64,000 nt of DNA from Siphonodentalium dalli. Its lineage: Eukaryota; Mollusca; Scaphopoda; Gadilida; Siphonodentaliidae. The position numbers and the translations under genes are program-made. A model generated the notes under the pieces. It did no database searches and was not told the origin of the DNA. It worked only from the letters and a program-made list of their open reading frames with translations. Numbering within the stretch: position 1 is the stretch's first letter; each line of letters begins with the position of its first letter. Positions 1 through 35,518 of this stretch are shown in pieces. The stretch is taken from positions 11,871,710 through 11,935,709 of the forward strand of contig CP136062.1 of NCBI GenBank assembly GCA_032622095.1. Reading direction: 5' to 3'.

Positions 1-511
1 GGGCCGTTCTGTTGGGTAAAGGGTTAATGTGACAACCATTGGCACAGGGCCGTTCTGTTGGGTAAAGGGTTAATGTGACAACCATTGGCACAGGGCCGTT
101 CTGTTGGGTAAAGGGTTAATGTGACAACCAATTCATTGGCACAGGGCCGTTCTGTTGGGTAAAGGGTTAATGTGACAACCATTGGCACAGGGCCGTTCTG
201 TTGGGTAAAGGGTTAATGTGACAACCATTGGCACAGGGCCGTTCTGTTGGGTAAAGGGTTAATGTGACAACCATTGGCACAGGGCCGTTCTGTTGGGTAA
301 AGGGTTAATGTGACAACCAATTCATTGGCACAGGGCCGTTCTGTTGGGTAAAGGGTTAATGTGACAACCATTGGCACAGGGCCGTTCTGTTGGGTAAAGG
401 GTTAATGTGACAACCATTGGCACAGGGCCGTTCTGTTGGGTAAAGGGTTAATGTGACAACCATTGGCACAGGGCCGTTCTGTTGGGTAAAGGGTTAATGT
501 GACAACCAATT
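1..511. repeat. 46-bp tandem repeat (11 copies) derived from a MITE end
   Basis: Eleven tandem copies start at 1, 47, 93, 144, 190, 236, 282, 333, 379, 425 and 471. The unit is 46 bp; copies 3 and 7 are 51 bp through a 5-bp insertion (ATTC plus A). About 36 bp of each unit matches the terminal sequence of the TTAA double-hairpin MITEs at 34987, 41070 and 50802 (GGGCCGTTCTGTTGGGTAAA then GGGTTAA, preceded by ATTGGCACA). The remaining ten bases (TGTGACAACC) look like flank amplified together with that end. The array ends about 57 bp before the SF3A1 acceptor at 568, so it fills the 3' end of the upstream intron, and it runs off the left edge. Confidence 0.95.
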
Positions 512-1244: not shown

Positions 1245-1346
1245 AGTCCAGTCATATTCAAGGTGGCTGTTCCGAATATACCCGACAAATCTGAATGGAA
1301 ACTCAATGGACAACTCCTCAACTTCACACTGCCGCTCACAGACGCT
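1245..1346 (+). CDS. SF3A1: SF3A1 exon: start of ubiquitin-like domain
   Basis: Acceptor TTTCAG ends at 1244 and donor GCT|GTAAGT begins at 1347. The exon holds 34 complete codons (phase 0 in and out), beginning SPVIFKVAVPNIPDKSEWKL and ending NFTLPLTDA. This is the beta-hairpin and first helix entry of the SF3A1 C-terminal ubiquitin-like fold. In the known protein this domain contacts U1 snRNA stem-loop 4 and links the 5' splice-site and branch-site complexes. The last 26 bases of the exon are the exonic part of the 62-bp minisatellite unit. CTGCCGCTC in the exon stays intact, while most array copies read CTACCACTC. Confidence 0.95.
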
Positions 1347-4300
1347 GTAAGTTTAATATATCCTGTGTACGGGTCTATATATACTTCACACTACCACTCA
1401 CAGACGCTGTAAGTTTAATATATCCTGTGTACTGGTCTATATATACTTCACACTGCCACTCACAGACGCTGTAAGTTTAATATATCCTGTGTACGGGTCT
1501 ATATATACTTCACACTACCACTCACAGACGCTGTAAGTTTAATATATCCTGTGTACGGGTCTATATATACTTCACACTGCCGCTCACAGACGCTGTAAGT
1601 TTAATATATCCTGTGTACGGGTCTATATATACTTCACACTACCACTCACAGATGCTGTAAGTTTAATATATCCTGTGTACGGGTCTATATATACTTCACA
1701 CTGCCACTCACAGACGCTGTAAGTTTAATATATCCTGTGTACGGGTCTATATATACTTCACACTACCACTCACAGACGCTGTAAGTTTAATATATCCTGT
1801 GTACGGGTCTATATATACTTCACACTGCCGCTCACAGACGCTGTAAGTTTAATATATCCTGTGTACGGGTCTATATATACTTCACACTGCCGCTCACAGA
1901 CGCTGTAAGTTTAATATATCCTGTGTACGGGTCTATATATACTTCACACTACCACTCACAGACGCTGTAAGTTTAATATATCCTGTGTACGGGTCTATAT
2001 ATACTTCACACTACCACTCACAGACGCTGTAAGTTTAATATATCCTGTGTACAGGTCTATATATACTTCACACTACCACTCACAGACGCTGTAAGTTTAA
2101 TATATCCTGTGTACGGGTCTATATATACTTCACACTGCCACTCACAGACGCTGTAAGTTTAATATATCCTGTGTACGGGTCTATATATACTTCACACTAC
2201 CACTCACAGACGCTGTAAGTTTAATATATCCTGTGTACGGGTCTATATATACTTCACACTACCACTCACAGACGCTGTAAGTTTAATATATCCTGTGTAC
2301 GGGTCTATATATACTTCACACTACCACTCACAGACGCTGTAAGTTTAATATATCCTGTGTACGGGTCTATATATACTTCACACTACCACTCACAGACGCT
2401 GCAAGTTTAATATATCCTGTGTACGGGTCTATATATACTTCACACTGCCGCTCACAGACGCTGTAAGTTTAATATATCCTGTGTACGGGTCTATATATAC
2501 TTCACACTACCACTCACAGACGCTGCAAGTTTAATATATCCTGTGTACGGGTCTATATATACTTCACACTGCCGCTCACAGACGCTGTAAGTTTAATATA
2601 TCCTGTGTACGGGTCTATATATACTTCACACTACCACTCACAGACGCTGTAAGTTTAATATATCCTGTGTACGGGTCTATATATACTTCACACTACCACT
2701 CACAGATGCTGTAAGTTTAATATATCCTGTGTACTGGTCTATATATACTTCACACTACCACTCACAGACGCTGTAAGTTTAATATATCCTGTGTACTGGT
2801 CTATATATACTTCACACTGCCACTCACAGACGCTGTAAGTTTAATATATCCTGTGTACGGGTCTATATATACTTCACACTACCACTCACAGACGCTGTAA
2901 GTTTAATATATCCTGTGTACGGGTCTATATATACTTCACACTGCCACTCACAGACGCTGTAAGTTTAATATATCCTGTGTACGGGTCTATATATACTTCA
3001 CACTACCACTCACAGACGCTGTAAGTTTAATATATCCTGTGTACTGGTCTATATATACTTCACACTGCCACTCACAGACGCTGTAAGTTTAATATATCCT
3101 GTGTACGGGTCTATATATACTTCACACTACCACTCACAGATGCTGTAAGTTTAATATATCCTGTGTACTGGTCTATATATACTTCACACTACCACTCACA
3201 GACGCTGTAAGTTTAATATATCCTGTGTACGGGTCTCTATATACTTCACACTGCCGCTCACAGACGCTGTAAGTTTAATATATCCTGTGTACGGGTCTAT
3301 ATATACTTCACACTACCACTCACAGACGCTGTAAGTTTAATATATCCTGTGTACTGGTCTATATATACTTCACACTACCACTCACAGACGCTGTAAGTTT
3401 AATATATCCTGTGTACTGGTCTATATATACTTCACACTACCACTCACAGACGCTGTAAGTTTAATATATCCTGTGTACTGGTCTATATATACTTCACACT
3501 GCCGCTCACAGACGCTGTAAGTTTAATATATCCTGTGTACGGGTCTATATATACTTCACACTACCACTCACAGATGCTGTAAGTTTAATATATCCTGTGT
3601 ACGGGTCTATATATACTTCACACTGCCACTCACAGACGCTGTAAGTTTAATATATCCTGTGTACGGGTCTATATATACTTCACACTACCACTCACAGACG
3701 CTGTAAGTTTAATATATCCTGTGTACGGGTCTATATATACTTCACACTACCACTCACAGACGCTGTAAGTTTAATATATCCTGTGTACGGGTCTATATAT
3801 ACTTCACACTACCACTCACAGATGCTGTAAGTTTAATATATCCTGTGTACTGGTCTATATATACTTCACACTACCACTCACAGACGCTGTAAGTTTAATA
3901 TATCCTGTGTACGGGTCTATATATACTTCACACTGCCGCTCACAGACGCTGTAAGTTTAATATATCCTGTGTACGGGTCTATATATACTTCACACTACCA
4001 CTCACAGATGCTGTAAGTTTAATATATCCTGTGTACGGGTCTATATATACTTCACACTACCACTCACAGACGCTGTAAGTTTAATATATCCTGTGTACGG
4101 GTCTATATATACTTCACACTACCACTCACAGACGCTGTAAGTTTAATATATCCTGTGTACTGGTCTATATATACTTCACACTACCACTCACAGACGCTGT
4201 AAGTTTAATATATCCTGTGTACGGGTCTATATATACTTCACACTACCACTCACAGACGCTGTAAGTTTAATATATCCTGTGTACGGGTCTATATATACTT

Positions 4301-7300
4301 CACACTACCACTCACAGACGCTGTAAGTTTAATATATCCTGTGTACGGGTCTATATATACTTCACACTACCACTCACAGACGCTGTAAGTTTAATATAGC
4401 CTGTGTACGGGTCTATATATACTTCACACTACCACTCACAGACGCTGTAAGTTTAATATATCCTGTGTACGGGTCTATATATACTTCACACTACCACTCA
4501 CAGACGCTGTAAGTTTAATATATCCTGTGTACGGGTCTATATATACTTCACACTACCACTCACAGACGCTGTAAGTTTAATATATCCTGTGTACGGGTCT
4601 ATATATACTTCACACTGCCACTCACAGACGCTGTAAGTTTAATATATCCTGTGTACGGGTCTATATATACTTCACACTACCACTCACAGACGCTGTAAGT
4701 TTAATATATCCTGTGTACGGGTCTATATATACTTCACACTGCCGCTCACAGACGCTGTAAGTTTAATATATCCTGTGTACGGGTCTATATATACTTCACA
4801 CTACCACTCACAGACGCTGTAAGTTTAATATATCCTGTGTACTGGTCTATATATACTTCACACTACCACTCACAGACGCTGTAAGTTTAATATATCCTGT
4901 GTACGGGTCTATATATACTTCACACTGCCGCTCACAGACTCTGTAAGTTTAATATATCCTGTGTACGGGTCTATATATACTTCACACTACCACTCACAGA
5001 CGCTGTAAGTTTAATATATCCTGTGTACGGGTCTATATATACTTCACACTGCCGCTCACAGACTCTGTAAGTTTAATATATCCTGTGTACTGGTCTATAT
5101 ATACTTCACACTACCACTCACAGACGCTGTAAGTTTAATATATCCTGTGTACGGGTCTATATATACTTCACACTGCCGCTCACAGACGCTGTAAGTTTAA
5201 TATATCCTGTGTACTGGTCTATATATACTTCACACTACCACTCACAGACGCTGTAAGTTTAATATATCCTGTGTACGGGTCTATATATACTTCACACTGC
5301 CGCTCACAGACGCTGTAAGTTTAATATATCCTGTGTACGGGTCTATATATACTTCACACTGCCACTCACAGACGCTGTAAGTTTAATATATCCTGTGTAC
5401 GGGTCTATATATACTTCACACTACCACTCACAGACGCTGTAAGTTTAATATATCCTGTGTACAGGTCTATATATACTTCACACTACCACTCACAGACGCT
5501 GTAAGTTTAATATATCCTGTGTACGGGTCTATATATACTTCACACTGCCACTCACAGACGCTGTAAGTTTAATATATCCTGTGTACGGGTCTATATATAC
5601 TTCACACTACCACTCACAGACGCTGTAAGTTTAATATATCCTGTGTACGGGTCTATATATACTTCACACTACCACTCACAGACGCTGTAAGTTTAATATA
5701 TCCTGTGTACGGGTCTATATATACTTCACACTACCACTCACAGACGCTGTAAGTTTAATATATCCTGTGTACGGGTCTATATATACTTCACACTACCACT
5801 CACAGACGCTGTAAGTTTAATATATCCTGTGTACGGGTCTATATATACTTCACACTACCACTCACAGATGCTGTAAGTTTAATATATCCTGTGTACGGGT
5901 CTATATATACTTCACACTACCACTCACAGATGCTGTAAGTTTAATATATCCTGTGTACTGGTCTATATATACTTCACACTACCACTCACAGACGCTGTAA
6001 GTTTAATATATCCTGTGTACGGGTCTATATATACTTCACACTGCCACTCACAGACGCTGTAAGTTTAATATATCATGTGTACGGGTCTATATATACTTCA
6101 CACTACCACTCACAGACGCTGTAAGTTTAATATATCCTGTGTACGGGTCTATATATACTTCACACTACCACTCACAGACGCTGTAAGTTTAATATATCCT
6201 GTGTACTGGTCTATATATACTTCACACTGCCACTCACAGACGCTGTAAGTTTAATATATCCTGTGTACGGGTCTATATATACTTCACACTGCCACTCACA
6301 GACGCTGTAAGTTTAATATATCCTGTGTACGGGTCTATATATACTTCACACTACCACTCACAGACGCTGTAAGTTTAATATATCCTGTGTACGGGTCTAT
6401 ATATACTTCACACTGCCACTCACAGACGCTGTAAGTTTAATATATCCTGTGTACGGGTCTATATATACTTCACACTACCACTCACAGATGCTGTAAGTTT
6501 AATATATCCTGTGTACTGGTCTATATATACTTCACACTACCACTCACAGACGCTGTAAGTTTAATATATCCTGTGTACGGGTCTATATATACTTCACACT
6601 GCCGCTCACAGACGCTGTAAGTTTAATATATCCTGTGTACGGGTCTATATATACTTCACACTACCACTCACAGATGCTGTAAGTTTAATATATCCTGTGT
6701 ACGGGTCTATATATACTTCACACTACCACTCACAGACGCTGTAAGTTTAATATATCCTGTGTACGGGTCTATATATACTTCACACTACCACTCACAGACG
6801 CTGTAAGTTTAATATATCCTGTGTACTGGTCTATATATACTTCACACTACCACTCACAGACGCTGTAAGTTTAATATATCCTGTGTACGGGTCTATATAT
6901 ACTTCACACTACCACTCACAGACGCTGTAAGTTTAATATATCCTGTGTACGGGTCTATATATACTTCACACTACCACTCACAGACGCTGTAAGTTTAATA
7001 TATCCTGTGTACGGGTCTATATATACTTCACACTACCACTCACAGACGCTGTAAGTTTAATATAGCCTGTGTACGGGTCTATATATACTTCACACTACCA
7101 CTCACAGACGCTGTAAGTTTAATATATCCTGTGTACGGGTCTATATATACTTCACACTACCACTCACAGACGCTGTAAGTTTAATATATCCTGTGTACGG
7201 GTCTATATATACTTCACACTACCACTCACAGACGCTGTAAGTTTAATATATCCTGTGTACGGGTCTATATATACTTCACACTGCCACTCACAGACGCTGT

Positions 7301-10300
7301 AAGTTTAATATATCCTGTGTACGGGTCTATATATACTTCACACTACCACTCACAGACGCTGTAAGTTTAATATATCCTGTGTACGGGTCTATATATACTT
7401 CACACTGCCGCTCACAGACGCTGTAAGTTTAATATATCCTGTGTACGGGTCTATATATACTTCACACTACCACTCACAGACGCTGTAAGTTTAATATATC
7501 CTGTGTACTGGTCTATATATACTTCACACTACCACTCACAGACGCTGTAAGTTTAATATATCCTGTGTACGGGTCTATATATACTTCACACTGCCGCTCA
7601 CAGACTCTGTAAGTTTAATATATCCTGTGTACGGGTCTATATATACTTCACACTACCACTCACAGACGCTGTAAGTTTAATATATCCTGTGTACGGGTCT
7701 ATATATACTTCACACTGCCGCTCACAGACTCTGTAAGTTTAATATATCCTGTGTACTGGTCTATATATACTTCACACTACCACTCACAGACGCTGTAAGT
7801 TTAATATATCCTGTGTACGGGTCTATATATACTTCACACTGCCGCTCACAGACGCTGTAAGTTTAATATATCCTGTGTACTGGTCTATATATACTTCACA
7901 CTACCACTCACAGACGCTGTAAGTTTAATATATCCTGTGTACGGGTCTATATATACTTCACACTGCCGCTCACAGACGCTGTAAGTTTAATATATCCTGT
8001 GTACGGGTCTATATATACTTCACACTGCCACTCACAGACGCTGTAAGTTTAATATATCCTGTGTACGGGTCTATATATACTTCACACTACCACTCACAGA
8101 CGCTGTAAGTTTAATATATCCTGTGTACAGGTCTATATATACTTCACACTACCACTCACAGACGCTGTAAGTTTAATATATCCTGTGTACGGGTCTATAT
8201 ATACTTCACACTGCCACTCACAGACGCTGTAAGTTTAATATATCCTGTGTACGGGTCTATATATACTTCACACTACCACTCACAGACGCTGTAAGTTTAA
8301 TATATCCTGTGTACGGGTCTATATATACTTCACACTACCACTCACAGACGCTGTAAGTTTAATATATCCTGTGTACGGGTCTATATATACTTCACACTAC
8401 CACTCACAGACGCTGTAAGTTTAATATATCCTGTGTACGGGTCTATATATACTTCACACTACCACTCACAGACGCTGTAAGTTTAATATATCCTGTGTAC
8501 GGGTCTATATATACTTCACACTACCACTCACAGATGCTGTAAGTTTAATATATCCTGTGTACGGGTCTATATATACTTCACACTACCACTCACAGATGCT
8601 GTAAGTTTAATATATCCTGTGTACTGGTCTATATATACTTCACACTACCACTCACAGACGCTGTAAGTTTAATATATCCTGTGTACGGGTCTATATATAC
8701 TTCACACTGCCACTCACAGACGCTGTAAGTTTAATATATCATGTGTACGGGTCTATATATACTTCACACTACCACTCACAGACGCTGTAAGTTTAATATA
8801 TCCTGTGTACGGGTCTATATATACTTCACACTACCACTCACAGACGCTGTAAGTTTAATATATCCTGTGTACTGGTCTATATATACTTCACACTGCCACT
8901 CACAGACGCTGTAAGTTTAATATATCCTGTGTACGGGTCTATATATACTTCACACTGCCACTCACAGACGCTGTAAGTTTAATATATCCTGTGTACGGGT
9001 CTATATATACTTCACACTACCACTCACAGACGCTGTAAGTTTAATATATCCTGTGTACGGGTCTATATATACTTCACACTGCCACTCACAGACGCTGTAA
9101 GTTTAATATATCCTGTGTACGGGTCTATATATACTTCACACTACCACTCACAGACGCTGTAAGTTTAATATATCCTGTGTACGGGTCTATATATACTTCA
9201 CACTACCACTCACAGACGCTGTAAGTTTAATATATCCTGTGTACTGGTCTATATATACTTCACACTACCACTCACAGACGCTGTAAGTTTAATATATCCT
9301 GTGTACGGGTCTATATATACTTCACACTACCACTCACAGACGCTGTAAGTTTAATATATCCTGTGTACGGGTCTATATATACTTCACACTGCCGCTCACA
9401 GACGCTGTAAGTTTAATATATCCTGTGTACGGGTCTATATATACTTCACACTACCACTCACAGACGCTTTAAGTTTAATATATCCTGTGTACTGGTCTAT
9501 ATATACTTCACACTGCCACTCACAGACGCTGTAAGTTTAATATATCCTGTGTACGGGTCTATATATACTTCACACTACCACTCACAGATGCTGTAAGTTT
9601 AATATATCCTGTGTACTGGTCTATATATACTTCACACTACCACTCACAGACGCTGTAAGTTTAATATATCCTGTGTACGGGTCTCTATATACTTCACACT
9701 GCCGCTCACAGACGCTGTAAGTTTAATATATCCTGTGTACGGGTCTATATATACTTCACACTACCACTCACAGACGCTGTAAGTTTAATATATCCTGTGT
9801 ACTGGTCTATATATACTTCACACTACCACTCACAGACGCTGTAAGTTTAATATATCCTGTGTACTGGTCTATATATACTTCACACTACCACTCACAGACG
9901 CTGTAAGTTTAATATATCCTGTGTACTGGTCTATATATACTTCACACTACCACTCACAGACGCTGTAAGTTTAATATATCCTGTGTACGGGTCTATATAT
10001 ACTTCACACTACCACTCACAGTCGCTGTAAGTTTAATATATCCTGTGTACGGGTCTATATATACTTCACACTACCACTCACAGACGCTGTAAGTTTAATA
10101 TATCCTGTGTACTGGTCTATATATACTTCACACTACCACTCACAGTCGCTGTAAGTTTAATATATCCTGTGTACGGGTCTATATATACTTCACACTACCG
10201 CTCACAGACGCTGTAAGTTTAATATATCCTGTGTACGGGTCTATATATACTTCACACTACCACTCACAGATGCTGTAAGTTTAATATATCCTGTGTACGG

Positions 10301-13300
10301 GTCTATATATACTTCACACTGCCACTCACAGACGCTGTAAGTTTAATATATCCTGTGTACGGGTCTATATATACTTCACACTACCACTCACAGACGCTGT
10401 AAGTTTAATATATCCTGTGTACGGGTCTATATATACTTCACACTGCCGCTCACAGACGCTGTAAGTTTAATATATCCTGTGTACGGGTCTATATATACTT
10501 CACACTACCACTCACAGACGCTGTAAGTTTAATATATCCTGTGTACGGGTCTATATATACTTCACACTACCACTCACAGACGCTGTAAGTTTAATATATC
10601 CTGTGTACGGGTCTATATATACTTCACACTACCACTCACAGACGCTGTAAGTTTAATATATCCTGTGTACGGGTCTATATATACTTCACACTACCACTCA
10701 CAGATGCTGTAAGTTTAATATATCCTGTGTACTGGTCTATATATACTTCACACTACCACTCACAGACGCTGTAAGTTTAATATATCCTGTGTACGGGTCT
10801 ATATATACTTCACACTGCCGCTCACAGACGCTGTAAGTTTAATATATCCTGTGTACGGGTCTATATATACTTCACACTACCACTCACAGATGCTGTAAGT
10901 TTAATATATCCTGTGTACGGGTCTATATATACTTCACACTACCACTCACAGATGCTGTAAGTTTAATATATCCTGTGTACGGGTCTATATATACTTCACA
11001 CTACCACTCACAGACGCTGTAAGTTTAATATATCCTGTGTACGGGTCTATATATACTTCACACTGCCGCTCACAGACGCTGTAAGTTTAATATATCCTGT
11101 GTACGGGTCTATATATACTTCACACTACCACTCACAGACGCTGTAAGTTTAATATATCCTGTGTACGGGTCTATATATACTTCACACTACCACTCACAGA
11201 CGCTGTAAGTTTAATATATCCTGTGTACGGGTCTATATATACTTCACACTACCACTCACAGATGCTGTAAGTTTAATATATCCTGTGTACGGGTCTATAT
11301 ATACTTCACACTACCACTCACAGACGCTGTAAGTTTAATATATCCTGTGTACGGGTCTATATATACTTCACACTACCACTCACAGACGCTGTAAGTTTAA
11401 TATAGCCTGTGTACGGGTCTATATATACTTCACACTACCACTCACAGACGCTGTAAGTTTAATATATCCTGTGTACGGGTCTATATATACTTCACACTAC
11501 CACTCACAGACGCTGTAAGTTTAATATATCCTGTGTACGGGTCTATATATACTTCACACTGCCACTCACAGACGCTGTAAGTTTAATATATCCTGTGTAC
11601 GGGTCTATATATACTTCACACTACCACTCACAGACGCTGTAAGTTTAATATATCCTGTGTACGGGTCTATATATACTTCACACTACCACTCACAGACGCT
11701 GTAAGTTTAATATATCCTGTGTACGGGTCTATATATACTTCACACTACCACTCACAGACGCTGTAAGTTTAATATATCCTGTGTACGGGTCTATATATAC
11801 TTCACACTACCACTCACAGACGCTGTAAGTTTAATATATCCTGTGTACGGGTCTATATATACTTCACACTACCACTCACAGACGCTGTAAGTTTAATATA
11901 TCCTGTGTACGGGTCTATATATACTTCACACTACCACTCAGAGACGCTGTAAGTTTAATATATCCTGTGTACGGGTCTATATATACTTCACACTGCCGCT
12001 CACAGATGCTGTAAGTTTAATATATCCTGTGTACGGGTCTATATATACTTCACACTACCACTCACAGACGCTGTAAGTTTAATATATCCTGTGTACTGGT
12101 CTATATATACTTCACACTACCACTCACAGACGCTGTAAGTTTAATATATCCTGTGTACTGGTCTATATATACTTCACACTACCACTCACAGACGCTGTAA
12201 GTTTAATATATCCTGTGTACTGGTCTATATATACTTCACACTGCCGCTCACAGACGCTGTAAGTTTAATATATCCTGTGTACGGGTTTATATATACTTCA
12301 CACTACCACTCACAGACGCTGTAAGTTTAATATATCCTGTGTACGGGTCTATATATACTTCACACTGCCGCTCACAGACGCTGTAAGTTTAATATATCCT
12401 GTGTACGGGTCTATATATACTTCACACTACCACTCACAGATGCTGTAAGTTTAATATATCCTGTGTACGGGTCTATATATACTTCACACTACCACTCACA
12501 GACGCTGTAAGTTTAATATATCCTGTGTACGGGTCTATATATACTTCACACTACCACTCACAGACGCTGTAAGTTTAATATATCATGTGTACGGGTCTAT
12601 ATATACTTCACACTACCACTCACAGACGCTGTAAGTTTAATATATCATGTGTACGGGTCTATATATACTTCACACTACCACTCACAGATGCTGTAAGTTT
12701 AATATATCCTGTGTACTGGTCTATATATACTTCACACTACCACTCACAGATGCTGTAAGTTTAATATATCCTGTGTACGGGTCTATATATACTTCACACT
12801 ACCACTCACAGACGCTGTAAGTTTAATATATCCTGTGTACTGGTCTATATATACTTCACACTACCACTCACAGATGCTGTAAGTTTAATATATCCTGTGT
12901 ACGGGTCTATATATACTTCACACTACCACTCACAGACGCTGTAAGTTTAATATATCCTGTGTACTGGTCTATATATACTTCACACTACCACTCACAGACG
13001 CTGTAAGTTTAATATATCCTGTGTACGGGTCTATATATACTTCACACTACCACTCACAGATGCTGTAAGTTTAATATATCCTGTGTACGGGTCTATATAT
13101 ACTTCACACTACCACTCACAGATGCTGTAAGTTTAATATATCCTGTGTACTGGTCTATATATACTTCACACTACCACTCACAGACGCTGTAAGTTTAATA
13201 TATCCTGTGTACTGGTCTATATATACTTCACACTGCCGCTCACAGACGCTGTAAGTTTAATATATCCTGTGTACGGGTCTATATATACTTCACACTGCCG

Positions 13301-19300: not shown

Positions 19301-22300
19301 GCTTCACACTACCACTCACAGACGCTGTAAGTTTAATATATCCTGTGTACGGGTCTATATATACTTCACACTGCCGCTCACAGACGCTGTAAGTTTAATA
19401 TATCCTGTGTACTGGTCTATATATACTTCACACTACCACTCACAGACGCTGTAAGTTTAATATATCCTGTGTACGGGTCTATATATACTTCACACTACCA
19501 CTCACAGACGCTGTAAGTTTAATATATCCTGTGTACGGGTCTATATATACTTCACACTACCACTCACAGACGCTGCAAGTTTAATATCTCCTGTGTACAG
19601 GTCTATATATACTTCACACTGCCGCTCACAGACGCTGTAAGTTTAATATATCCTGTGTACTGGTCTATATATACTTCACACTGCCGCTCACAGACGCTGT
19701 AAGTTTAATATATCCTGTGTACGGGTCTATATATACTTCACACTACCACTCACAGACGCTGTAAGTTTAATATATCCTGTGTACGGGTCTATATATACTT
19801 CACACTGCCGCTCACAGATGCTGTAAGTTTAATATATCCTGTGTACGGGTCTATATATACTTCACACTACCACTCACAGACGCTGTAAGTTTAATATATC
19901 CTGTGTACGGGTCTATATATACTTCACACTACCACTCACAGACGCTGTAAGTTTAATATCTCCTGTGTACGGGTCTATATATACTTCACACTACCACTCA
20001 CAGACGCTGTAAGTTTAATATATCCTGTGTACGGGTCTATATATACTTCACACTGCCGCTCACAGACGCTGTAAGTTTAATATATCCTGTGTACGGGTCT
20101 ATATATACTTCACACTACCACTCACAGACGCTGTAAGTTTAATATATCCTGTGTACGGGTCTATATATACTTCACACTACCACTCACAGACGCTGTAAGT
20201 TTAATATATCCTGTGTACGGGTCTATATATACTTCACACTGCCACTCACAGACGCTGTAAGTTTAATATATCCTGTGTACGGGTCTATATATACTTCACA
20301 CTACCGCTTACAGACGCTGTAAGTTTAATATATCCTGTGTACTGGTCTATATATACTTCACACTGCCGCTCACAGATGCTGTAAGTTTAATATATCCTGT
20401 GTACGGGTCTATATATACTTCACACTACCACTCACAGACGCTGTAAGTTTAATATATCCTGTGTACGGGTCTATATATACTTCACACTACCACTCACAGA
20501 CGCTGTAAGTTTAATATATCCTGTGTACGGGTCTATATATACTTCACACTACCACTCACAGACGCTGTAAGTTTAATATATCCTGTGTACGGGTCTATAT
20601 ATACTTCACACTACCACTCACAGACGCTGTAAGTTTAATATATCCTGTGTACGGGTCTATATATACTTCACACTACCACTCACAGACGCTGTAAGTTTTA
20701 ATATATCCTGTGTACGGGTCTATATATACTTCACACTACCACTCACAGACGCTGTAAGTTTTAATATATCCTGTGTACGGGTCTATATATACTTCACACT
20801 ACCACTCACAGACGCTGTAAGTTTAATATATCCTGTGTACGGGTCTATATATACTTCACACTACCACTCACAGACGCTGTAAGTTTAATATATCCTATGT
20901 ACGGGTCTATATATACTTCACACTACCACTCACAGATGCTGTAAGTTTAATATATCCTGTGTACGGGTCTATATATACTTCACACTACCACTCACAGATG
21001 CTGTAAGTTTAATATATCCTGTGTACGGGTCTATATATACTTCACACTACCACTCACAGACGCTGTAAGTTTAATATATCCTGTGTACGGGTCTATATAT
21101 ACTTCACACTACCACTCACAGACGCTGTAAGTTTAATATATCCTGTGTACGGGTCTATATATACTTCACACTACCACTCACAGACGCTGTAAGTTTAATA
21201 TATCCTGTGTACGGGTCTATATATACTTCACACTACCACTCACAGATGCTGTAAGTTTAATATATCCTGTGTACGGGTCTATATATACTTCACACTACCA
21301 CTCACAGACGCTGTAAGTTTAATATATCCTGTGTACGGGTCTATATATACTTCACACTACCACTCACAGACGCTGTAAGTTTAATATATCCTGTGTACGG
21401 GTCTATATATACTTCACACTACCACTCACAGACGCTGTAAGTTTAATATATCCTGTGTACGGGTCTATATATACTTCACACTACCACTCACAGATGCTGT
21501 AAGTTTAATATATCCTGTGTACGGGTCTATATATACTTCACACTACCACTCACAGACGCTGTAAGTTTAATATATCCTGTGTACGGGTCTATATATACTT
21601 CACACTACCACTCACAGACGCTGTAAGTTTAATATATCCTGTGTACGGGTCTATATATACTTCACACTGCCGCTCACAGATGCTGTAAGTTTAATATATC
21701 CTGTGTACGGGTCTATATATACTTCACACTACCACTCACAGATGCTGTAAGTTTAATATATCCTGTGTACGGGTCTATATATACTTCACACTACCACTCA
21801 CAGATGCTGTAAGTTTAATATATCCTGTGTACGGGTCTATATATACTTCACACTACCACTCACAGACGCTGTAAGTTTAATATATCCTGTGTACGGGTCT
21901 ATATATACTTCACACTGCCGCTCACAGATGCTGTAAGTTTAATATATCCTGTGTACGGGTCTATATATACTTCACACTACCACTCACAGACGCTGTAAGT
22001 TTAATATATCCTGTGTACGGGTCTATATATACTTCACACTACCACTCACAGACGCTGTAAGTTTAATATATCCTGTGTACGGGTCTATATATACTTCACA
22101 CTACCACTCACAGACGCTGTAAGTTTAATATATCCTGTGTACGGGTCTATATATACTTCACACTACCACTCACAGATGCTGTAAGTTTAATATATCCTGT
22201 GTACAGGTCTATATATACTTCACACTACCACTCACAGACGCTGTAAGTTTAATATATCCTGTGTACGGGTCTATATATACTTCACACTACCACTCACAGA

Positions 22301-25300
22301 CGCTGTAAGTTTAATATATCCTGTGTACGGGTCTATATATACTTCACACTGCCGCTCACAGATGCTGTAAGTTTAATATATCCTGTGTACGGGTCTATAT
22401 ATACTTCACACTACCACTCACAGACGCTGTAAGTTTAATATATCCTGTGTACGGGTCTATATATACTTCACACTACCACTCACAGACGCTGTAAGTTTAA
22501 TATATCCTGTGTACGGGTCTATATATACTTCACACTACCACTCACAGACGCTGTAAGTTTAATATATCCTGTGTACGGGTCTATATATACTTCACACTAC
22601 CACTCACAGATGCTGTAAGTTTAATATATCCTGTGTACGGGTCTATATATACTTCACACTACCACTCACAGACGCTGTAAGTTTAATATATCCTGTGTAC
22701 GGGTCTATATATACTTCACACTACCACTCACAGACGCTGTAAGTTTAATATATCCTGTGTACGGGTCTATATATACTTCACACTGCCGCTCACAGACGCT
22801 GTAAGTTTAATATATCCTGTGTACGGGTCTATTTATACTTCACACTGCCGCTCACAGACGCTGTAAGTTTAATATATCCTGTGTACGGGTCTATATATAC
22901 TTCACACTACCACTCACAGACGCTGTAAGTTTAATATATCCTGTGTACTGGTCTATATATACTTCACACTACCGCTCACAGACGCTGTAAGTTTAATATA
23001 TCCTGTGTACGGGTCTATATATACTTCACACTACCACTCACAGACGCTGTAAGTTTAATATATCCTGTGTACTGGTCTATATATACTTCACACTACCACT
23101 CACAGACGCTGTAAGTTTAATATCTCCTGTGTACGGGTCTATATATACTTCACACTGCCGCTCACAGACGCTGTAAGTTTAATATATCCTGTGTACTGGT
23201 CTATATATACTTCACACTGCCGCTCACAGACGCTGTAAGTTTAATATATCCTGTGTACGGGTCTATATATACTTCACACTACCACTCACAGACGCTGTAA
23301 GTTTAATATATCCTGTGTACGGGTCTATATATACTTCACACTACCACTCACAGACGCTGTAAGTTTAATATATCCTGTGTACGGGTCTATATATACTTCA
23401 CACTACCACTCACAGACGCTGTAAGTTTAATATATCCTGTGTACGGGTCTATATATACTTCACACTACCACTCACAGACGCTGTAAGTTTAATATATCCT
23501 GTGTACTGGTCTATATATACTTCACACTACCACTCACAGACGCTGTAAGTTTAATATCTCCTGTGTACGGGTCTATATATACTTCACACTACCACTCACA
23601 GACGCTGTAAGTTTAATATATCCTGTGTACGGGTCTATATATACTTCACACTGCCGCTCACAGACGCTGTAAGTTTAATATATCCTGTGTACGGGTCTAT
23701 ATATACTTCACACTACCACTCACAGACGCTGTAAGTTTAATATATCCTGTGTACGGGTCTATATATACTTCACACTACCACTCACAGACGCTGTAAGTTT
23801 AATATATCCTGTGTACGGGTCTATATATACTTCACACTGCCGCTCACAGATGCTGTAAGTTTAATATATCCTGTGTACGGGTCTATATATACTTCACACT
23901 ACCACTCACAGACGCTGTAAGTTTAATATATCCTGTGTACGGGTCTATATATACTTCACACTACCACTCACAGACGCTGTAAGTTTAATATATCCTGTGT
24001 ACGGGTCTATATATACTTCACACTACCACTCACAGACGCTGTAAGTTTAATATATCCTGTGTACGGGTCTATATATACTTCACACTACCACTCACAGACG
24101 CTGTAAGTTTAATATATCCTGTGTACGGGTCTATATATACTTCACACTACCACTCACAGACGCTGTAAGTTTAATATATCCTGTGTACGGGTCTATATAT
24201 ACTTCACACTGCCACTCACAGACGCTGTAAGTTTAATATATCCTGTGTACGGGTCTATATATACTTCACACTACCACTCACAGACGCTGTAAGTTTAATA
24301 TATCCTGTGTACTGGTCTATATATACTTCACACTACCACTCACAGACGCTGTAAGTTTAATATATCCTGTGTACGGGTCTATATATACTTCACACTACCA
24401 CTCACAGATGCTGTAAGTTTAATATATCCTGTGTACGGGTCTATATATACTTCACACTACCACTCACAGACGCTGTAAGTTTAATATATCCTGTGTACGG
24501 GTCTATATATACTTCACACTACCACTCACAGACGCTGTAAGTTTAATATATCCTGTGTACGGGTCTATATATACTTCACACTGCCGCTCACAGACGCTGT
24601 AAGTTTAATATATCCTGTGTACGGGTCTATTTATACTTCACACTACCACTCACAGACGCTGTAAGTTTAATATATCCTGTGTACGGGTCTATATATACTT
24701 CACACTACCACTCACAGATGCTGTAAGTTTAATATATCCTGTCTACGGGTCTATATATACTTCACACTGCCGCTCACAGACGCTGTAAGTTTAATATATC
24801 CTGTGTACGGGTCTATATATACTTCACACTACCACTCACAGACGCTGTAAGTTTAATATATCCTGTGTACGGGTCTATATATACTTCACACTACCACTCA
24901 CAGACGCTGTAAGTTTAATATATCCTGTGTACGGGTCTATATATACTTCACACTACCACTCACAGACGCTGTAAGTTTAATATATCCTGTGTACGGGTCT
25001 ATATATACTTCACACTACCACTCACAGATGCTGTAAGTTTAATATATCCTGTGTACGGGTCTATATATACTTCACACTACCACTCACAGACGCTGTAAGT
25101 TTAATATATCCTGTGTACGGGTCTATATATACTTCACACTACCACTCACAGACGCTGTAAGTTTAATATATCCTGTGTACGGGTCTATATATACTTCACA
25201 CTACCACTCACAGACGCTGTAAGTTTAATATATCCTGTGTACGGGTCTATATATACTTCACACTACCACTCACAGACGCTGTAAGTTTAATATATCCTGT

Positions 25301-28300
25301 GTACGGGTCTATATATACTTCACACTACCACTCACAGATGCTGTAAGTTTAATATATCCTGTGTACGGGTCTATATATACTTCACACTACCACTCACAGA
25401 CGCTGTAAGTTTAATATATCCTGTGTACGGGTCTATATATACTTCACACTACCACTCACAGACGCTGTAAGTTTAATATATCCTGTGTACGGGTCTATAT
25501 ATACTTCACACTACCACTCACAGACGCTGTAAGTTTAATATATCCTGTGTACGGGTCTATATATACTTCACACTACCACTCACAGACGCTGTAAGTTTAA
25601 TATATCCTGTGTACGGGTCTATATATACTTCACACTACCACTCACAGATGCTGTAAGTTTAATATATCCTGTGTACGGGTCTATATATACTTCACACTAC
25701 CACTCACAGACGCTGTAAGTTTAATATATCCTGTGTACGGGTCTATATATACTTCACACTGCCGCTCACAGATGCTGTAAGTTTAATATATCCTGTGTAC
25801 GGGTCTATATATACTTCACACTGCCGCTCACAGACGCTGTAAGTTTAATATATCCTGTGTACGGGTCTATATATACTTCACACTACCACTCACAGATGCT
25901 GTAAGTTTAATATATCCTGTGTACGGGTCTATATATACTTCACACTACCACTCACAGACGCTGTAAGTTTAATATATCCTGTGTACGGGTCTATATATAC
26001 TTCACACTACCACTCACAGACGCTGTAAGTTTAATATATCCTGTGTACGGGTCTATATATACTTCACACTACCACTCACAGACGCTGTAAGTTTAATATA
26101 TCCTGTGTACTGGTCTATATATACTTCACACTACCACTCACAGACGCTGTAAGTTTAATATATCCTGTGTACGGGTCTATATATACTTCACACTGCCGCT
26201 CACAGATGCTGTAAGTTTAATATATCCTGTGTACTGGTCTATATATACTTCACACTACCACTCACAGATGCTGTAAGTTTAATATATCCTGTGTACTGGT
26301 CTATATATACTTCACACTGCCGCTCACAGACGCTGTAAGTTTAATATATCCTGTGTACGGGTCTATATATACTTCACACTACCACTCACAGACGCTGTAA
26401 GTTTAATATATCCTGTGTACGGGTCTATATATACTTCACACTGCCGCTCACAGATGCTGTAAGTTTAATATATCCTGTGTACTGGTCTATATATACTTCA
26501 CACTACCACTCACAGACGCTGTAAGTTTAATATATCCTGTGTACGGGTCTATATATACTTCACACTGCCGCTCACAGATGCTGTAAGTTTAATATATCCT
26601 GTGTACGGGTCTATATATACTTCACACTACCACTCACAGACGCTGTAAGTTTAATATATCCTGTGTACGGGTCTATATATACTTCACACTACCACTCACA
26701 GACGCTGTAAGTTTAATATATCCTGTGTACTGGTCTATATATACTTCACACTACCACTCACAGATGCTGTAAGTTTAATATATCCTGTGTACGGGTCTAT
26801 ATATACTTCACACTACCACTCACAGACGCTGTAAGTTTAATATATCCTGTGTACGGGTCTATATATACTTCACACTACCACTCACAGACGCTGTAAGTTT
26901 AATATATCCTGTGTACTGGTCTATATATACTTCACACTACCACTCACAGACGCTGTAAGTTTAATATATCCTGTGTACGGGTCTATATATACTTCACACT
27001 ACCACTCACAGACGCTGTAAGTTTAATATATCCTGTGTACGGGTCTATATATACTTCACACTACCACTCACAGATGCTGTAAGTTTAATATATCCTGTGT
27101 ACTGGTCTATATATACTTCACACTACCACTCACAGATGCTGTAAGTTTAATATATCCTGTGTACGGGTCTATATATACTTCACACTACCACTCACAGATG
27201 CTGTAAGTTTAATATATCCTGTGTACGGGTCTATATATACTTCACACTACCACTCACAGACGCTGTAAGTTTAATATATCCTGTGTACTGGTCTATATAT
27301 ACTTCACACTACCACTCACAGATGCTGTAAGTTTAATATATCCTGTGTACGGGTCTATATATACTTCACACTACCACTCACAGACGCTGTAAGTTTAATA
27401 TATCCTGTGTACGGGTCTATATATACTTCACACTACCACTCACAGACGCTGCAAGTTTAATATATCCTGTGTACGGGTCTATATATACTTCACACTACCA
27501 CTCACAGACGCTGTAAGTTTAATATATCCTGTGTACGGGTCTATATATACTTCACACTACCACTCACAGACGCTGCAAGTTTAATATATCCTGTGTACGG
27601 GTCTATATATACTTCACACTACCACTCACAGACGCTGTAAGTTTAATATATCCTGTGTACGGGTCTATATATACTTCACACTACCACTCACAGACGCTGT
27701 AAGTTTAATATATCCTGTGTACGGGTCTATATATACTTCACACTACCACTCACAGATGCTGTAAGTTTAATATATCCTGTGTACGGGTCTATATATACTT
27801 CACACTACCACTCACAGATGCTGTAAGTTTAATATATCCTGTGTACTGGTCTATATATACTTCACACTACCACTCACAGACGCTGTAAGTTTAATATATC
27901 CTGTGTACGGGTCTATATATACTTCACACTACCACTCACAGATGCTGTAAGTTTAATATATCCTGTGTACTGGTCTATATATACTTCACACTGCCGCTCA
28001 CAGACGCTGTAAGTTTTAATATATCCTGTGTACGGGTCTATATATACTTCACACTGCCGCTCACAGACGCTGTAAGTTTAATATATCCTGTGTACGGGTC
28101 TATATATACTTCACACTACCACTCACAGACGCTGTAAGTTTAATATATCCTGTGTACTGGTCTATATATACTTCACACTACCACTCACAGACGCTGTAAG
28201 TTTAATATATCCTGTGTACTGGTCTATATATACTTAACACTACCACTCACAGACGCTGTAAGTTTAATATATCCTGTGTTCGGGTCTATATATACTTCAC

Positions 28301-31300
28301 ACTACCACTCACAGACGCTGTAAGTTTAATATATCCTGTGTACAGGTCTATATATACTTCACACTACCACTCACAGACGCTGTAAGTTTAATATATCCTG
28401 TGTACGGGTCTATATATACTTCACACTACCACTCACAGACGCTGTAAGTTTAATATATCCTGTGTACGGGTCTATATATACTTCACACTGCCGCTCACAG
28501 ACGCTGTAAGTTTAATATATCCTGTGTTCGGGTCTATATATACTTCACACTACCACTCACAGACGCTGCAAGTTTAATATATCCTGTGTACGGGTCTATA
28601 TATACTTCACACTACCACTCACAGACGCTGTAAGTTTAATATATCATGTGTACGGGTCTATATATACTTCACACTACCACTCACAGATGCTGTAAGTTTA
28701 ATATATCCTGTGTACGGGTCTATATATACTTCACACTACCACTCACAGATGCTGTAAGTTTAATATCTCCTGTGTACAGGTCTATATATACTTCACACTA
28801 CCACTCACAGACGCTGTAAGTTTAATATATCCTGTGTACGGGTCTATATATACTTCACACTACCACTCACAGATGCTGTAAGTTTAATATATCCTGTGTA
28901 CGGGTCTATATATACTTCACACTGCCTCTCACAGACGCTGTAAGTTTAATATATCCTGTGTACTGGTCTATATATACTTCACACTACCACTCACCGACGC
29001 TGTAAGTTTAATATATCCTGTGTACGGGTCTATATATACTTCACACTACCACTCACAGACGCTGTAAGTTTAATATATCCTGTGTACGGGTCTATATATA
29101 CTTCACACTACCACTCACAGACGCTGTAAGTTTAATATATCCTGTGTACGGGTCTATATATACTTCACACTACCGCTCACAGACGCTGTAAGTTTAATAT
29201 ATCCTGTGTACGGGTCTATATATACTTCACACTACCACTCACAGATGCTGTAAGTTTAATATATCCTGTGTACGGGTCTATATATACTTCACACTACCAC
29301 TCACAGACGCTGTAAGTTTAATATATCCTGTGTACGGGTCTATATATACTTCACACTACCACTCACAGACGCTGTAAGTTTAATATATCCTGTGTACGGG
29401 TCTATTTATACTTCACACTACCACTCACAGATGCTGTAAGTTTAATATATCCTGTGTACGGGTCTATATATACTTCACACTACCGCTCACAGACGCTGTA
29501 AGTTTAATATATCCTGTGTACGGGTCTATATATACTTCACACTACCACTCACAGATGCTGTAAGTTTAATATATCCTGTGTACGGGTCTATATATACTTC
29601 ACACTACCACTCACAGACGCTGTAAGTTTAATATATCCTGTGTACGGGTCTATATATACTTCACACTGCCTCTCACAGACGCTGTAAGTTTAATATATCC
29701 TGTGTACTGGTCTATATATACTTCACACTACCACTCACCGACGCTGTAAGTTTAATATATCCTGTGTACGGGTCTATATATACTTCACACTACCACTCAC
29801 AGACGCTGTAAGTTTAATATATCCTGTGTACGGGTCTATATATACTTCACACTACCACTCACAGACGCTGTAAGTTTAATATATCCTGTGTACGGGTCTA
29901 TATATACTTCACACTACCGCTCACAGACGCTGTAAGTTTAATATATCCTGTGTACGGGTCTATATATACTTCACACTACCACTCACAGATGCTGTAAGTT
30001 TAATATATCCTGTGTACGGGTCTATATATACTTCACACTACCACTCACAGACGCTGTAAGTTTAATATATCCTGTGTACGGGTCTATATATACTTCACAC
30101 TACCACTCACAGACGCTGTAAGTTTAATATATCCTGTGTACGGGTCTATTTATACTTCACACTACCACTCACAGATGCTGTAAGTTTAATATATCCTGTG
30201 TACAGGTCTATATATACTTCACACTACCACTCACAGACGCTGTAAGTTTAATATATCCTGTGTACGGGTCTATATATACTTCACACTACCACTCACAGAT
30301 GCTGTAAGTTTAATATATCCTGTGTACGGGTCTATATATACTTCACACTACCACTCACAGATGCTGTAAGTTTAATATATCCTGTGTACGGGTCTATATA
30401 TACTTCACACTACCACTCACAGATGCTGTAAGTTTAATATATCCTGTGTACAGGTCTATATATACTTCACACTACCACTCACAGACGCTGTAAGTTTAAT
30501 ATATCCTGTGTACGGGTCTATATATACTTCACACTACCACTCACAGATGCTGTAAGTTTAATATATCCTGTGTACGGGTCTATATATACTTCACACTACC
30601 ACTCACAGATGCTGTAAGTTTAATATATCCTGTGTACGGGTCTATATATACTTCACACTACCACTCACAGACGCTGTAAGTTTAATATATCCTGTGTACG
30701 GGTCTATATATACTTCACACTACCACTCACAGACGCTGTAAGTTTAATATATCCTGTGTACGGGTCTATTTATACTTCACACTACCACTCACAGATGCTG
30801 TAAGTTTAATATATCCTGTGTACTGGTCTATATATACTTCACACTACCACTCACAGATGCTGTAAGTTTTAATATATCCTGTGTACGGGTCTATATATAC
30901 TTCACACTACCACTCACAGACGCTGTAAGTTTAATATATCCTGTGTACGGGTCTATATATACTTCACACTACCACTCACAGATGCTGTAAGTTTAATATA
31001 TCCTGTGTACTGGTCTATATATACTTCACACTACCACTCACAGATGCTGTAAGTTTTAATATATCCTGTGTACGGGTCTATATATACTTCACACTACCAC
31101 TCACAGACGCTGTAAGTTTAATATATCCTGTGTACTGGTCTATATATACTTCACACTACCGCTCACAGACGCTGTAAGTTTAATATATCCTGTGTACTGG
31201 TCTATATATACTTCACACTACCGCTCACAGACTCTGTAAGTTTAATATATCCTGTGTACGGGTCTATATATACTTCACACTACCACTCACAGACGCTGTA

Positions 31301-33620
31301 AGTTTAATATATCCTGTGTACGGGTCTATATATACTTCACACTACCACTCACAGACGCTGTAAGTTTAATATATCCTGTGTACTGGTCTATATATACTTC
31401 ACACTACCGCTCACAGACGCTGTAAGTTTAATATATCCTGTGTACTGGTCTATATATACTTCACACTACCGCTCACAGACGCTGTAAGTTTAATATATCC
31501 TGTGTACGGGTCTATTTATACTTCACACTACCACTCACAGACGCTGTAAGTTTTAATATATCCTGTGTACGGGTCTATATATACTTCACACTACCACTCA
31601 CAGACGCTGTAAGTTTAATATATCCTGTGTACTGGTCTATATATACTTCACACTACCGCTCACAGACGCTGTAAGTTTAATATATCCTGTGTACTGGTCT
31701 ATATATACTTCACACTACCGCTCACAGACGCTGTAAGTTTAATATATCCTGTGTACGGGTCTATTTATACTTCACACTACCACTCACAGATGCTGTAAGT
31801 TTAATATATCCTGTGTACTGGTCTATATATACTTCACACTACCACTCACAGACGCTGTAAGTTTAATATATCCTGTGTACTGGTCTATATATACTTCACA
31901 CTACCACTCACAGACGCTGTAAGTTTAATATATCCTGTGTACTGGTCTATATATACTTCACACTGCCGCTCACAGACGCTGTAAGTTTTAATATATCCTG
32001 TGTACGGGTCTATATATACTTCACACTGCCGCTCACAGACGCTGTAAGTTTAATATATCCTGTGTACTGGTCTATATATACTTCACACTACCACTCAGAC
32101 GCTGTAAGTTTAATATATCCTGTGTACGGGTCTATATATACTTCACACTACCACTCACAGATGCTGTAAGTTTAATATATCCTGTGTACGGGTCTATTTA
32201 TACTTCACACTACCACTCACAGATGCTGTAAGTTTAATATATCCTGTGTACGGGTCTATATATACTTCACACTACCACTCACAGATGCTGTAAGTTTAAT
32301 ATATCCTGTGTACGGGTCTATTTATACTTCACACTACCACTCACAGATGCTGTAAGTTTAATATATCCTGTGTACGGGTCTATATATACTTCACACTACC
32401 ACTCACAGATGCTGTAAGTTTAATATATCCTGTGTACGGGTCTATTTATACTTCACACTACCACTCACAGATGCTGTAAGTTTAATATATCCTGTGTACG
32501 GGTCTATTTATACTTCACACTGCCGCTCACAGACGCTGTAAGTTTAATATATCCTGTGTACGGGTCTATATACACTTCACACTACCACTCACAGATGCTG
32601 TAAGTTTAATATATCCTGTGTACGGGTCTATATATACTTCACACTACCACTCACAGATGCTGTAAGTTTTAATATATCCTGTGTACGGGTCTATATATAC
32701 TTCACACTGCCGCTCACAGACGCTGTAAGTTTTAATATATCCTGTGTACGGGTCTATATACACTTCACACTACCACTCACAGATGCTGTAAGTTTAATAT
32801 ATCCTGTGTACGGGTCTATTTATACTTCACACTGCCGCTCACAGACGCTGTAAGTTTTAATATATCCTGTGTACGGGTCTATATACACTTCACACTACCA
32901 CTCACAGATGCTGTAAGTTTTAATATATCCTGTGTACGGGTCTATATACACTTCACACTACCACTCACAGACGCTGTAAGTTTAATATATCCTGTGTACG
33001 GGTCTATATATACTTCACACTACCACTCACAGATGCTGTAAGTTTAATATATCCTGTGTACGGGTCTATATATACTTCACACTACCACTCACAGATGCTG
33101 TAAGTTTAATATATCCTGTGTACTGGTCTATATATACTTCACACTGCCGCTCACAGATGCTGTAAGTTTAATATATCCTGTGTACGGGTCTATATATACT
33201 TCACACTACCACTCACAGACGCTGTAAGTTTAATATATCCTGTGTACGGGTCTATATATACTTCACACTACCACTCACAGACGCTGTAAGTTTAATATAT
33301 CCTGTGTACTGGTCTATTTATACTTCACACTGCCGCTCACAGACGCTGTAAGTTTTAATATATCCTGTGTACGGGTCTATATACACTTCACACTACCACT
33401 CACAGATGCTGTAAGTTTTAATATATCCTGTGTACGGGTCTATATATACTTCACACTGCCGCTCACAGACGCTGTAAGTTTTAATATATCCTGTGTACGG
33501 GTCTATATACACTTCACACTACCACTCACAGATGCTGTAAGTTTAATATATCCTGTGTACGGGTCTATTTATACTTCACACTGCCGCTCACAGACGCTGT
33601 AAGTTTTAATATATCCTGTA
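1321..33620 (+). repeat. 62-bp minisatellite, about 521 copies, each carrying an exon end plus GTAAGT donor
   Basis: The array begins inside the SF3A1 exon and fills about 32.3 kb of the intron. Each 62-bp unit has 26 bp of exon (ACTTCACACTGCCGCTCACA then GACGCT) and 36 bp of intron starting GTAAGTTTAATATATCC. First and last GT are at 1347 and 33599. That distance, 32,252 bp, equals 520 x 62 + 12, and the 12 is accounted for by fourteen units with an extra T (AGTTTTAATA) and one 2-bp deletion near 32097. That gives 521 junction copies. A few donors are altered: GCAAGT at about 2401, 2526, 19575, 27450, 27570 and 28568; TTAAGT near 9469; GTCAGT near 17219. Other variants are GACGCT/GATGCT, GTACGGG/GTACTGG/GTACAGG and TATATATAC/TATTTATAC. 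There is no other content, and no unique spacers. Confidence 0.98.
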
Positions 33621-33631
33621 TACGTTTACAC

Positions 33632-35445: not shown

Positions 35446-35518
35446 AACCCAATCAATCAATCAATCTTTCATGCATTCTACGAACTTGTGGAACATGAAT
35501 GTAGAATTTTGGATGCAA

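Follow-up and report, generated by a model that had tools for sequence, protein, structure and literature searches.

A 521-unit minisatellite across an exon–intron boundary of a gene assigned to SF3A1 in Siphonodentalium dalli

Splice-junction minisatellites and the SF3A1 locus

The closest described systems are the 'mirage' minisatellites of lancelets. In the parts of PMC3087553 and PMC3902484 drawn on here, these are reported for Adh3, the globins BflGb6 and BflGb9, troponin C and PGBD5; they affect both 5′ and 3′ boundaries in several genes per genome, are homogenised within clusters, and appear to leave splicing normal. Two BflGb6 haplotypes, carrying 6 and 3 mirage units, are described in these parts. 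The Rogers model, as given in an excerpt of PMC4974935, involves tandem duplication across an intron/exon boundary. The array that we describe here is like the lancelet mirages of these excerpts in that its tandem unit spans an exon–intron boundary and contains a splice signal, yet it is far larger, with 521 units over 32 kb against the 6 and 3 of the BflGb6 haplotypes. As in the Rogers model, so far as it is excerpted, the duplication crosses an intron/exon boundary; unlike in that model, no new intron is evident, the copies instead lengthening an existing one. Lancelet genomes are about 0.5 Gb in 18–20 chromosomes, and the Siphonodentalium dalli genome, at 2.23 Gb in 9 contigs, is unlike them.

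The window analysed here is a stretch of 64,000 nucleotides, and features lie on its forward strand unless stated. Judged by its translation, the host gene can be assigned with firm confidence to SF3A1: exon e11 (1245–1346), which reads SPVIFKVAVPNIPDKSEWKLNGQLLNFTLPLTDA, and the next exon match human SF3A1 chains over 58 residues (best E 7.6e-26, 7p08). This exon encodes part of the ubiquitin-like domain, its final 26 nt form the exon part of unit 1, and its acceptor, read directly, is TCTTTCAG immediately followed by AGTCCAG. Upstream lies e10 (570–744; translation and sequence match). The array-bearing intron (1347–37304, 35,958 bp) ends at the 72-nt exon e12 (37305–37376), whose acceptor outscores all 1,213 other AGs scored across the 36-kb intron. 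Thus the first-pass annotation was right to place the array within an SF3A1 intron with its acceptor 36 kb away. The final coding exon (40826–40927; tblastn and sequence) terminates in KERGGRKK and a stop. An Rfam scan of 33000–64000 gave 0 matches, and a Pfam scan of three open frames downstream gave none above the cut-off. Profile searches for mollusc haemocyanin (PF14830) and GFP (PF01353) also came back empty, an outcome that carries no firm weight.

Anatomy, turnover and constraint of the array

Tandem Repeats Finder (TRF) reports the array at 1321–33624 with a period of 62, 520.8 copies and 97% matches. Wrap-around alignment resolves it into 521 units, 505 of them 62 bp long, 14 of 63 bp, one of 60 bp, and a partial last unit of 52 bp. 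Each is composed of the final 26 nt of the SF3A1 exon and the initial 36 nt of its intron, unit 1 being 1321–1346 plus 1347–1382, so that there are 520 extra copies. Both methods thus bear out the copy number and unit composition given by the first-pass annotation; its span (1321–33620) starts correctly and ends 4 bp short. The donor hexamer is GTAAGT in 513 units, GCAAGT in six, and TTAAGT and GTCAGT in one each. Given that GTAAGT occurs 513 times in the array versus three times in 33625–64000, a chance origin is excluded.

The array is not the product of plainly copying one stretch, since it contains 58 distinct unit sequences and no exact self-repeat in it exceeds 2,739 bp. The repeat of that length, starting at 3750 and 6416, marks a block duplication (3750–9154) with an offset of 2,666 bp, or 43 units, and this block copy, together with rare variants spaced two units apart, is a sign of turnover. 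Interior units are homogenised, while the distal end (units 469–521, 30340–33624, delimited by variant positions and a per-block table) is more varied: most TTTT units (12 of 15) and T59 units (10 of 18) fall within it, and its full units (469–520) differ from the consensus at a mean of 1.5 positions, versus 0.77–1.31 in the nine other 52-unit blocks. In a mirage minisatellite the cluster boundaries would escape homogenisation, yet here the exon-side boundary is not set apart in this way: unit 1, which holds the true end of the exon, has the same sequence as 36 other units, unit 432 being the most distal of them. Therefore either exon end and array exchange sequence, or the array is of recent origin. 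An exact pattern search of the animal's own genome with one 63-bp version of the unit returned nine matches, all within the array; the common 62-bp unit may still have copies elsewhere.

It had been stressed in the first-pass annotation that nearly all units still read GTAAGT. This is correct as a count, but not as a sign of selective retention: there are three distinct variants at the six hexamer sites, 15 at the 30 intron sites outside it and 12 at the 26 exon sites. Looking for donor-specific constraint across these variants we saw none, and given that variation in the hexamer is as free as elsewhere in the unit, there is no sign of selection keeping the donors. In the exon part, the four variants found in at least nine units (106, 96, 9 and 110) are all synonymous, while each of six nonsynonymous variants is found in at most five (p = 0.027 for the contrast, a matter of 12 variants and small numbers). 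This counts against the neutral origin that we favour below, because drift of untranslated copies predicts no such pattern. It is what might be seen if the exon end and the array co-evolve, with unequal exchange replacing unit 1, so that any unit could come to be the coding one, and selection at that position screening for synonymous variants, and the identity of unit 1 with 36 other units fits this too. The data are few, however, two of the four common synonymous sites are CpG changes as read from the unit, and nonsynonymous variants do not differ from intron variants (p = 0.22). We regard such co-evolution, which is compatible with a neutral origin, as unlikely though worth entertaining.

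Long tandem arrays are difficult to assemble, and the array could be much shorter in the animal than in the assembly. Its 58 distinct units, positional structure and distinct distal end, and the 2,739-bp ceiling on exact self-repeats, all argue against such an error, which we consider very unlikely.

Copies at other splice junctions

We searched for junction-spanning copies at the 11 donors and 10 acceptors of SF3A1 that could be placed (more exons may exist), and at junctions of chaperonin, dynein and PRPF8 genes. Loci L010, L018, L021, L023, L030 and L036 were dropped as second copies, judged from printed contexts, and L007 and L008 because each is one long open frame. Twenty of the 23 PF00118 places lacking a locus were taken in, the remaining three looking like second copies. 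The PF12774 (57 of 96) and PF08083 (9 of 11) places used were those with exons close together, so the introns sampled there are short.

With junctions placed by eye, unplaceable ones being excluded, and 50 nt taken across each (maximum over 380 shuffles, 26), copies were found at 7/11 donors and 0/10 acceptors of SF3A1, and at 3/34 donors and 4/40 acceptors of the chaperonin genes. A search with junctions set by match ends (threshold 34; maximum over 1,180 shuffles, 32) again gave 7/11 and 0/10 for SF3A1, e4 dropping out and e8 entering, with 3/42 donors and 3/42 acceptors for chaperonin, 3/56 and 7/57 for dynein, and 1/9 and 3/9 for PRPF8. A strict rule then removed, by eye, donors whose alignments were intron-only (three dynein, one PRPF8 and SF3A1 e8), a rule from which the control windows were exempt. 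This leaves copies at 6/11 SF3A1 donors (e1, e6, e7, e9, e10 and e11) and 0/10 acceptors, at 3/107 donors and 13/108 acceptors of the other genes, and at 9/118 donors and 13/118 acceptors in the four gene sets pooled.

Recurrence thus extends over several genes and includes 5′ as well as 3′ boundaries. The e10 donor is spanned by a 45 bp × 3.2 repeat (737–879; TRF, sequence and junction search) that starts 8 nt inside the exon, and on the reverse strand a neighbouring gene carries a donor-spanning array (54163–54733, 153 bp × 3.7; TRF, reverse-strand reading, exon placed by eye) whose unit is an exon end, GTGAGT and a short intron stretch. The first-pass annotation had treated the array as exceptional in kind, a view that does not survive these examples from other SF3A1 donors, the neighbouring gene and unrelated genes, or the lancelet cases in the parts of PMC3087553 and PMC3902484 drawn on. 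We conclude that the SF3A1 array stands at the extreme of a class of tandem repeats that has seldom attracted notice and that recurs at other exon edges here. The further remark of the first-pass annotation that arrays in introns mostly avoid splice sites holds in part: outside SF3A1, local copies were found at 20/215 junctions versus 34/213 intron windows (p = 0.042), or 16/215 versus 34/213 if only junction-spanning alignments are counted (p = 0.007, under a rule stricter than that for windows). Copies do, however, span some junctions.

Donor duplication is more frequent in SF3A1 (6/11) than in the other genes (3/107, p = 1e-5) and than at SF3A1 acceptors (p = 0.012), and with e11 left out 5/10 donors remain (p = 8e-5 and 0.03, respectively), while the other genes lean the opposite way (p = 0.017 for donors versus acceptors); all p-values in this work are uncorrected, exons belonging to the same gene are not independent, and SF3A1 was picked because of the finding. 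Local copies are present in 9/21 intron control windows of SF3A1 itself, so that the 6/11 seen at donors does not exceed the general level within this gene (p = 0.71). The bias towards donors over acceptors in SF3A1 counts against a neutral origin, since a symmetric neutral process predicts none.

Tandem repeats cover 44.5% of the SF3A1 pieces (L001–L006), compared with 7.1% of the chaperonin loci, 5.0% of dynein and 15% of PRPF8; of ten 2-kb samples from other parts of the genome, nine do not exceed 6% and one reaches 23.5%. The preceding SF3A1 intron holds a 46-bp array (TRF) that fills 4334–10000 of the upstream piece L001 and ends in our window at 1–511. This richness is patchy: 33625–64000, including the 3′ end of SF3A1, is 8.5% covered, piece L005 is at 0%, and four of nine local 2-kb samples are at 0–1.5%. 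The signs of a regional effect along chromosome C2 are mixed: three junction copies (L031, L039 and L013) belong to the chaperonin gene lying at C2:20.4 Mb, but repeat cover in its loci L013, L031 and L032 is only 7.5%.

Splicing outcome, origin and significance

Treating every junction position as a donor regardless of its hexamer, and counting codons over the joined exons, we calculated the reading frame that results from each of the 521. Only the first, the unit 1 donor (1347–1352), yields the full SF3A1 frame; 519 stop at codon 55 and one at codon 58. A spliceosome confronted with hundreds of equal donors, as the first-pass annotation pictured it, is a fair description.

We think it probable that the array is a donor-side 'mirage' minisatellite, neutral in effect and spliced out from the donor of unit 1. 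A single tandem duplication would have run from 1321, inside the exon, to 36 nt into the intron, which is why each copy carries an exon end and a donor. Unequal exchange or slippage, within a minisatellite-rich gene, may then have expanded it to 521 units. Splicing would join donor 1 to the strong acceptor that lies 36 kb downstream. Tolerance of the array would come from three things: the first exon edge and donor to be encountered are intact, the remainder is intron, and the unit lacks a credible acceptor, its CAG scoring lower than every one of the 50 real acceptors sampled (−0.2 versus a median of 10.6). Most likely it is harmless because use of the first copy alone suffices.

Decoy splice sites regulate splicing-factor genes, as in the intron retention of SF3B1 in erythroblasts, and the array resembles them in that a U2 snRNP gene has splice sites within an intron that are unproductive; unlike them it consists of donors only, without credible paired acceptors, and no regulation is evident. 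It might nonetheless act as a regulatory decoy or U1 sink, tuning SF3A1 output or U1 occupancy because a slip beyond unit 1 gives a premature stop. All 520 later junction positions do lead to a stop, the array puts hundreds of U1 sites into SF3A1's own transcript, and the ubiquitin-like domain of SF3A1 is described as contacting U1 stem-loop 4 (PMC9311317, in the part drawn on). The confinement of SF3A1 junction copies to donors would also fit, as would the absence of the poly(A) hexamers AATAAA and ATTAAA (0 each in the array versus 39 and 25 in 33625–64000). That absence, however, follows from the homogeneity of the units, which contain the weaker hexamer AATATA 513 times. Furthermore, the donor motif is no more constrained than other parts of the unit; it is weak, matching 6/9 positions of the U1-complementary consensus and ranking at the 18th percentile among 45 donors sampled; and junction-spanning copies also occur in chaperonin, dynein, PRPF8 and the neighbouring gene. 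We therefore find a decoy or sink decidedly improbable. In a bolder version SF3A1, whose ubiquitin-like domain forms a link between U1 and U2, would use the array, productive at its first donor alone, and the donor copies at several other introns to sense U1/SF3A1 balance from within its own pre-mRNA; array length would tune the sensor, and the array would keep overwriting the coding exon end. This seems to us highly improbable. Recursive or stepwise splicing, removing the array piecewise as 57-nt mini-introns with the GT–AG ends offered by the consensus GTAAGT...CTCACAG, is not supported on the acceptor score given above and is extremely improbable.

The locus is a natural competition experiment in which more than 500 near-identical donors lie in one essential transcript and any choice but the first leads to a premature stop. 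It bears on whether the choice of a 5′ splice site is governed by being transcribed first and by exon definition. The data also suggest that minisatellites at splice junctions are not confined to the lancelets in which they were described but recur in another large genome, where they can grow to satellite size within a gene and leave its coding exons open.

Anatomy and identity of the array

The array that the first-pass annotation placed within an SF3A1 intron is real: TRF returns it at 1321-33624 with a period of 62, 520.8 copies and 97% matches. From 1321, within the 1245-1346 exon, the tandem segment runs across the donor to 36 nt inside the intron (1347-37304), giving a 62-bp unit of 26 nt of exon and 36 nt of intron. 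Wrap-around alignment bears out both the copy number and the donors previously claimed, resolving 521 units with GTAAGT in 513, and distinguishes 58 unit sequences. Unit 1, the true exon end, matches 36 other units exactly, the most distal being unit 432, so the exon end does not stand apart from the array. Signs of turnover include duplication of a 43-unit block (exact repeat 2,739 bp), the spacing of rare variants, which frequently lie two units from each other, and the concentration of most TTTT and T59 unit variants in units 469-521. A pattern search with the exact sequence of one 63-bp unit version, as distinct from the common 62-bp unit, gave 9 matches, all within the array.

Read together, the exons at 1245-1346 and 37305-37376 supply a segment of SF3A1's ubiquitin-like domain, matching the human protein over 58 residues (best E 7.6e-26); from them the frame stays open into the last exon at 40826. 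Genome-wide (2.23 Gb in 9 contigs), a 117-residue query found three matches, all at the SF3A1 locus. A longer human SF3A1 query found 6 matches upstream on the same chromosome, together with two weaker matches on contigs C9 and C4 (E 2e-10 and 2e-6; identity 50% and 35%) that may be other SURP-domain genes.

Consequences of donor choice

Reading-frame calculation gives the SF3A1 frame only when the first of the 521 junction positions is joined to the next exons; joining at the second puts a stop at codon 58, and at any of the remaining 519 the stop falls at codon 55, so accurate splicing of this intron is important. Among 45 donors sampled from this genome, the unit donor ranks at the 18th percentile by score. 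A regulatory role for the array is attractive given that SF3A1 contacts U1 stem-loop 4 (PMC9311317), but unit variants reveal no extra constraint on the donor hexamer relative to the rest of the unit. Piecewise removal is unlikely, since the unit's CAG scores below all 50 sampled acceptors and none of 1,213 other AGs scored in the intron comes up to the real acceptor; the array is rich in donors and lacks credible acceptors.

Repeats at other junctions and in the surrounding sequence

Junction copies are also present at other SF3A1 exons. The exon just upstream (570-744) has the same arrangement, a 45-bp repeat of 3.2 copies spanning its donor (737-879); further upstream, donor-spanning repeats occur at exons e9 (48 bp x 7) and e6 (20 bp x 3.7), junction copies at e1 and a decayed copy at e7. 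A second gene, on the minus strand, carries such a boundary-spanning minisatellite, or mirage, at 54163-54733, comprising 3.7 copies of a 153-bp unit in which an exon end is followed by GTGAGT and a short piece of intron. Smaller repeats of 37-41 bp, extending to ~54009, occupy most of the short intron before its next exon and look, by their sequence, derived from the 153-bp array. By eye, its protein is apparently cysteine-rich.

We compared 65 nt across each junction with 400 bp of flanking intron, at a threshold of 34 (the maximum in 1,180 shuffles was 32); strict counts retain only alignments spanning the junction, intron-only alignments having been removed by reading the printed alignments. 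Strict counts for donors and acceptors respectively were 6/11 and 0/10 in SF3A1, 3/42 and 3/42 in chaperonin genes, 0/56 and 7/57 in dynein genes, and 0/9 and 3/9 in PRPF8. Near-perfect tandem copies of at least 60 nt span acceptors just upstream of the real PRPF8 or dynein acceptors at three loci: L070 (PRPF8, exon at C4:23254767), L058 (C2:179289071) and L066 (C1:55462504).

Control intron windows 110 nt from the junction were positive in 9/21 cases in SF3A1 and 34/213 in other genes. The earlier generalisation that intron arrays avoid splice sites thus finds some support outside SF3A1, where copies are rarer at junctions than in intron windows (20/215 at the plain threshold, p = 0.042; 16/215 strict, p = 0.007). 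SF3A1 donors match the intron background of their own gene (p = 0.71). SF3A1 donors carry copies more often than other genes' donors (p = 1e-5; 8e-5 without the array's exon, e11) and than SF3A1 acceptors (p = 0.012; 0.03 without e11), while junction copies in other genes tilt towards acceptors (p = 0.017). The intron background accounts for the excess over other genes' donors, but not for the donor/acceptor asymmetry.

The SF3A1 stretch is repeat-rich yet patchy. Tandem repeats cover 44.5% of the six sampled pieces of the locus (L001-L006), 5-15% of the other gene sets and 8.5% of 33625-64000; among nine 2-kb samples in or beside the gene, those at 11.70, 11.81, 11.84 and 11.96 Mb reach 65-100%, that at 11.83 Mb 23.5%, and four 0-1.5%. 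A 46-bp array of ~6 kb (L001 4334-10000 and window 1-511) occupies the intron preceding exon 570-744, and GGGCCGTTCTGTTGG, a related sequence, recurs near 35420. In SF3A1's first sampled intron, a 44-bp array is present at both ends of a ~7.7-kb stretch (L003 2531-3001; L074 1-2001). The intron hosting the 62-bp array also contains a 220-residue open frame (36095-36757) that by eye looks like the C-terminal portion of a protein encoded by a retrotransposon; a Pfam search of this frame gave no match. Palindromic, MITE-like short repeats (e.g. GCAGAATGAGGTCCCCAGAGGGTGAA), seen at 35134-35446, 35800-35930 and 37787-37880, recur in several introns.

Origin of the array and its relatives

We consider it quite probable that the array is a donor-spanning tandem duplication, amplified and tolerated as intron. 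A duplication across the donor would have expanded by unequal exchange or slippage, and would be tolerated because the copy beside the exon remains undamaged and all that follows is intron. The SF3A1 donor excess, the donor/acceptor asymmetry within SF3A1 and the acceptor tilt of other genes all count against this reading, and the scarcity of junction copies outside SF3A1 and the patchiness of the repeat-rich stretch lower its probability slightly. Also against it, only synonymous variants are common in the exon part of the array (p = 0.027 versus nonsynonymous; intron versus nonsynonymous variants, p = 0.22), which hints, on small numbers, that unit 1 exchanges with the array under coding selection.

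This kind of repeat is already known. Tandem repeats spanning exon-intron boundaries in lancelet Adh3 were named mirages; they also occur in lancelet globin genes, at 5' and 3' boundaries alike, show length instability and, as RT-PCR suggests, are spliced normally (PMC3087553). Troponin C and PGBD5 provide further cases (PMC3902484), and in potato a boundary-crossing tandem duplication gave rise to a new intron (PMC4974935). Searches of open-licence literature on tandem or multiple donor sites and boundary-spanning repeats, judged mainly by titles and the starts of abstracts, turned up no comparable array. What is new, as far as we know, is the size of the array, at 521 units over 32 kb, its host gene, SF3A1, and the recurrence of such repeats at sampled junctions of a large genome.
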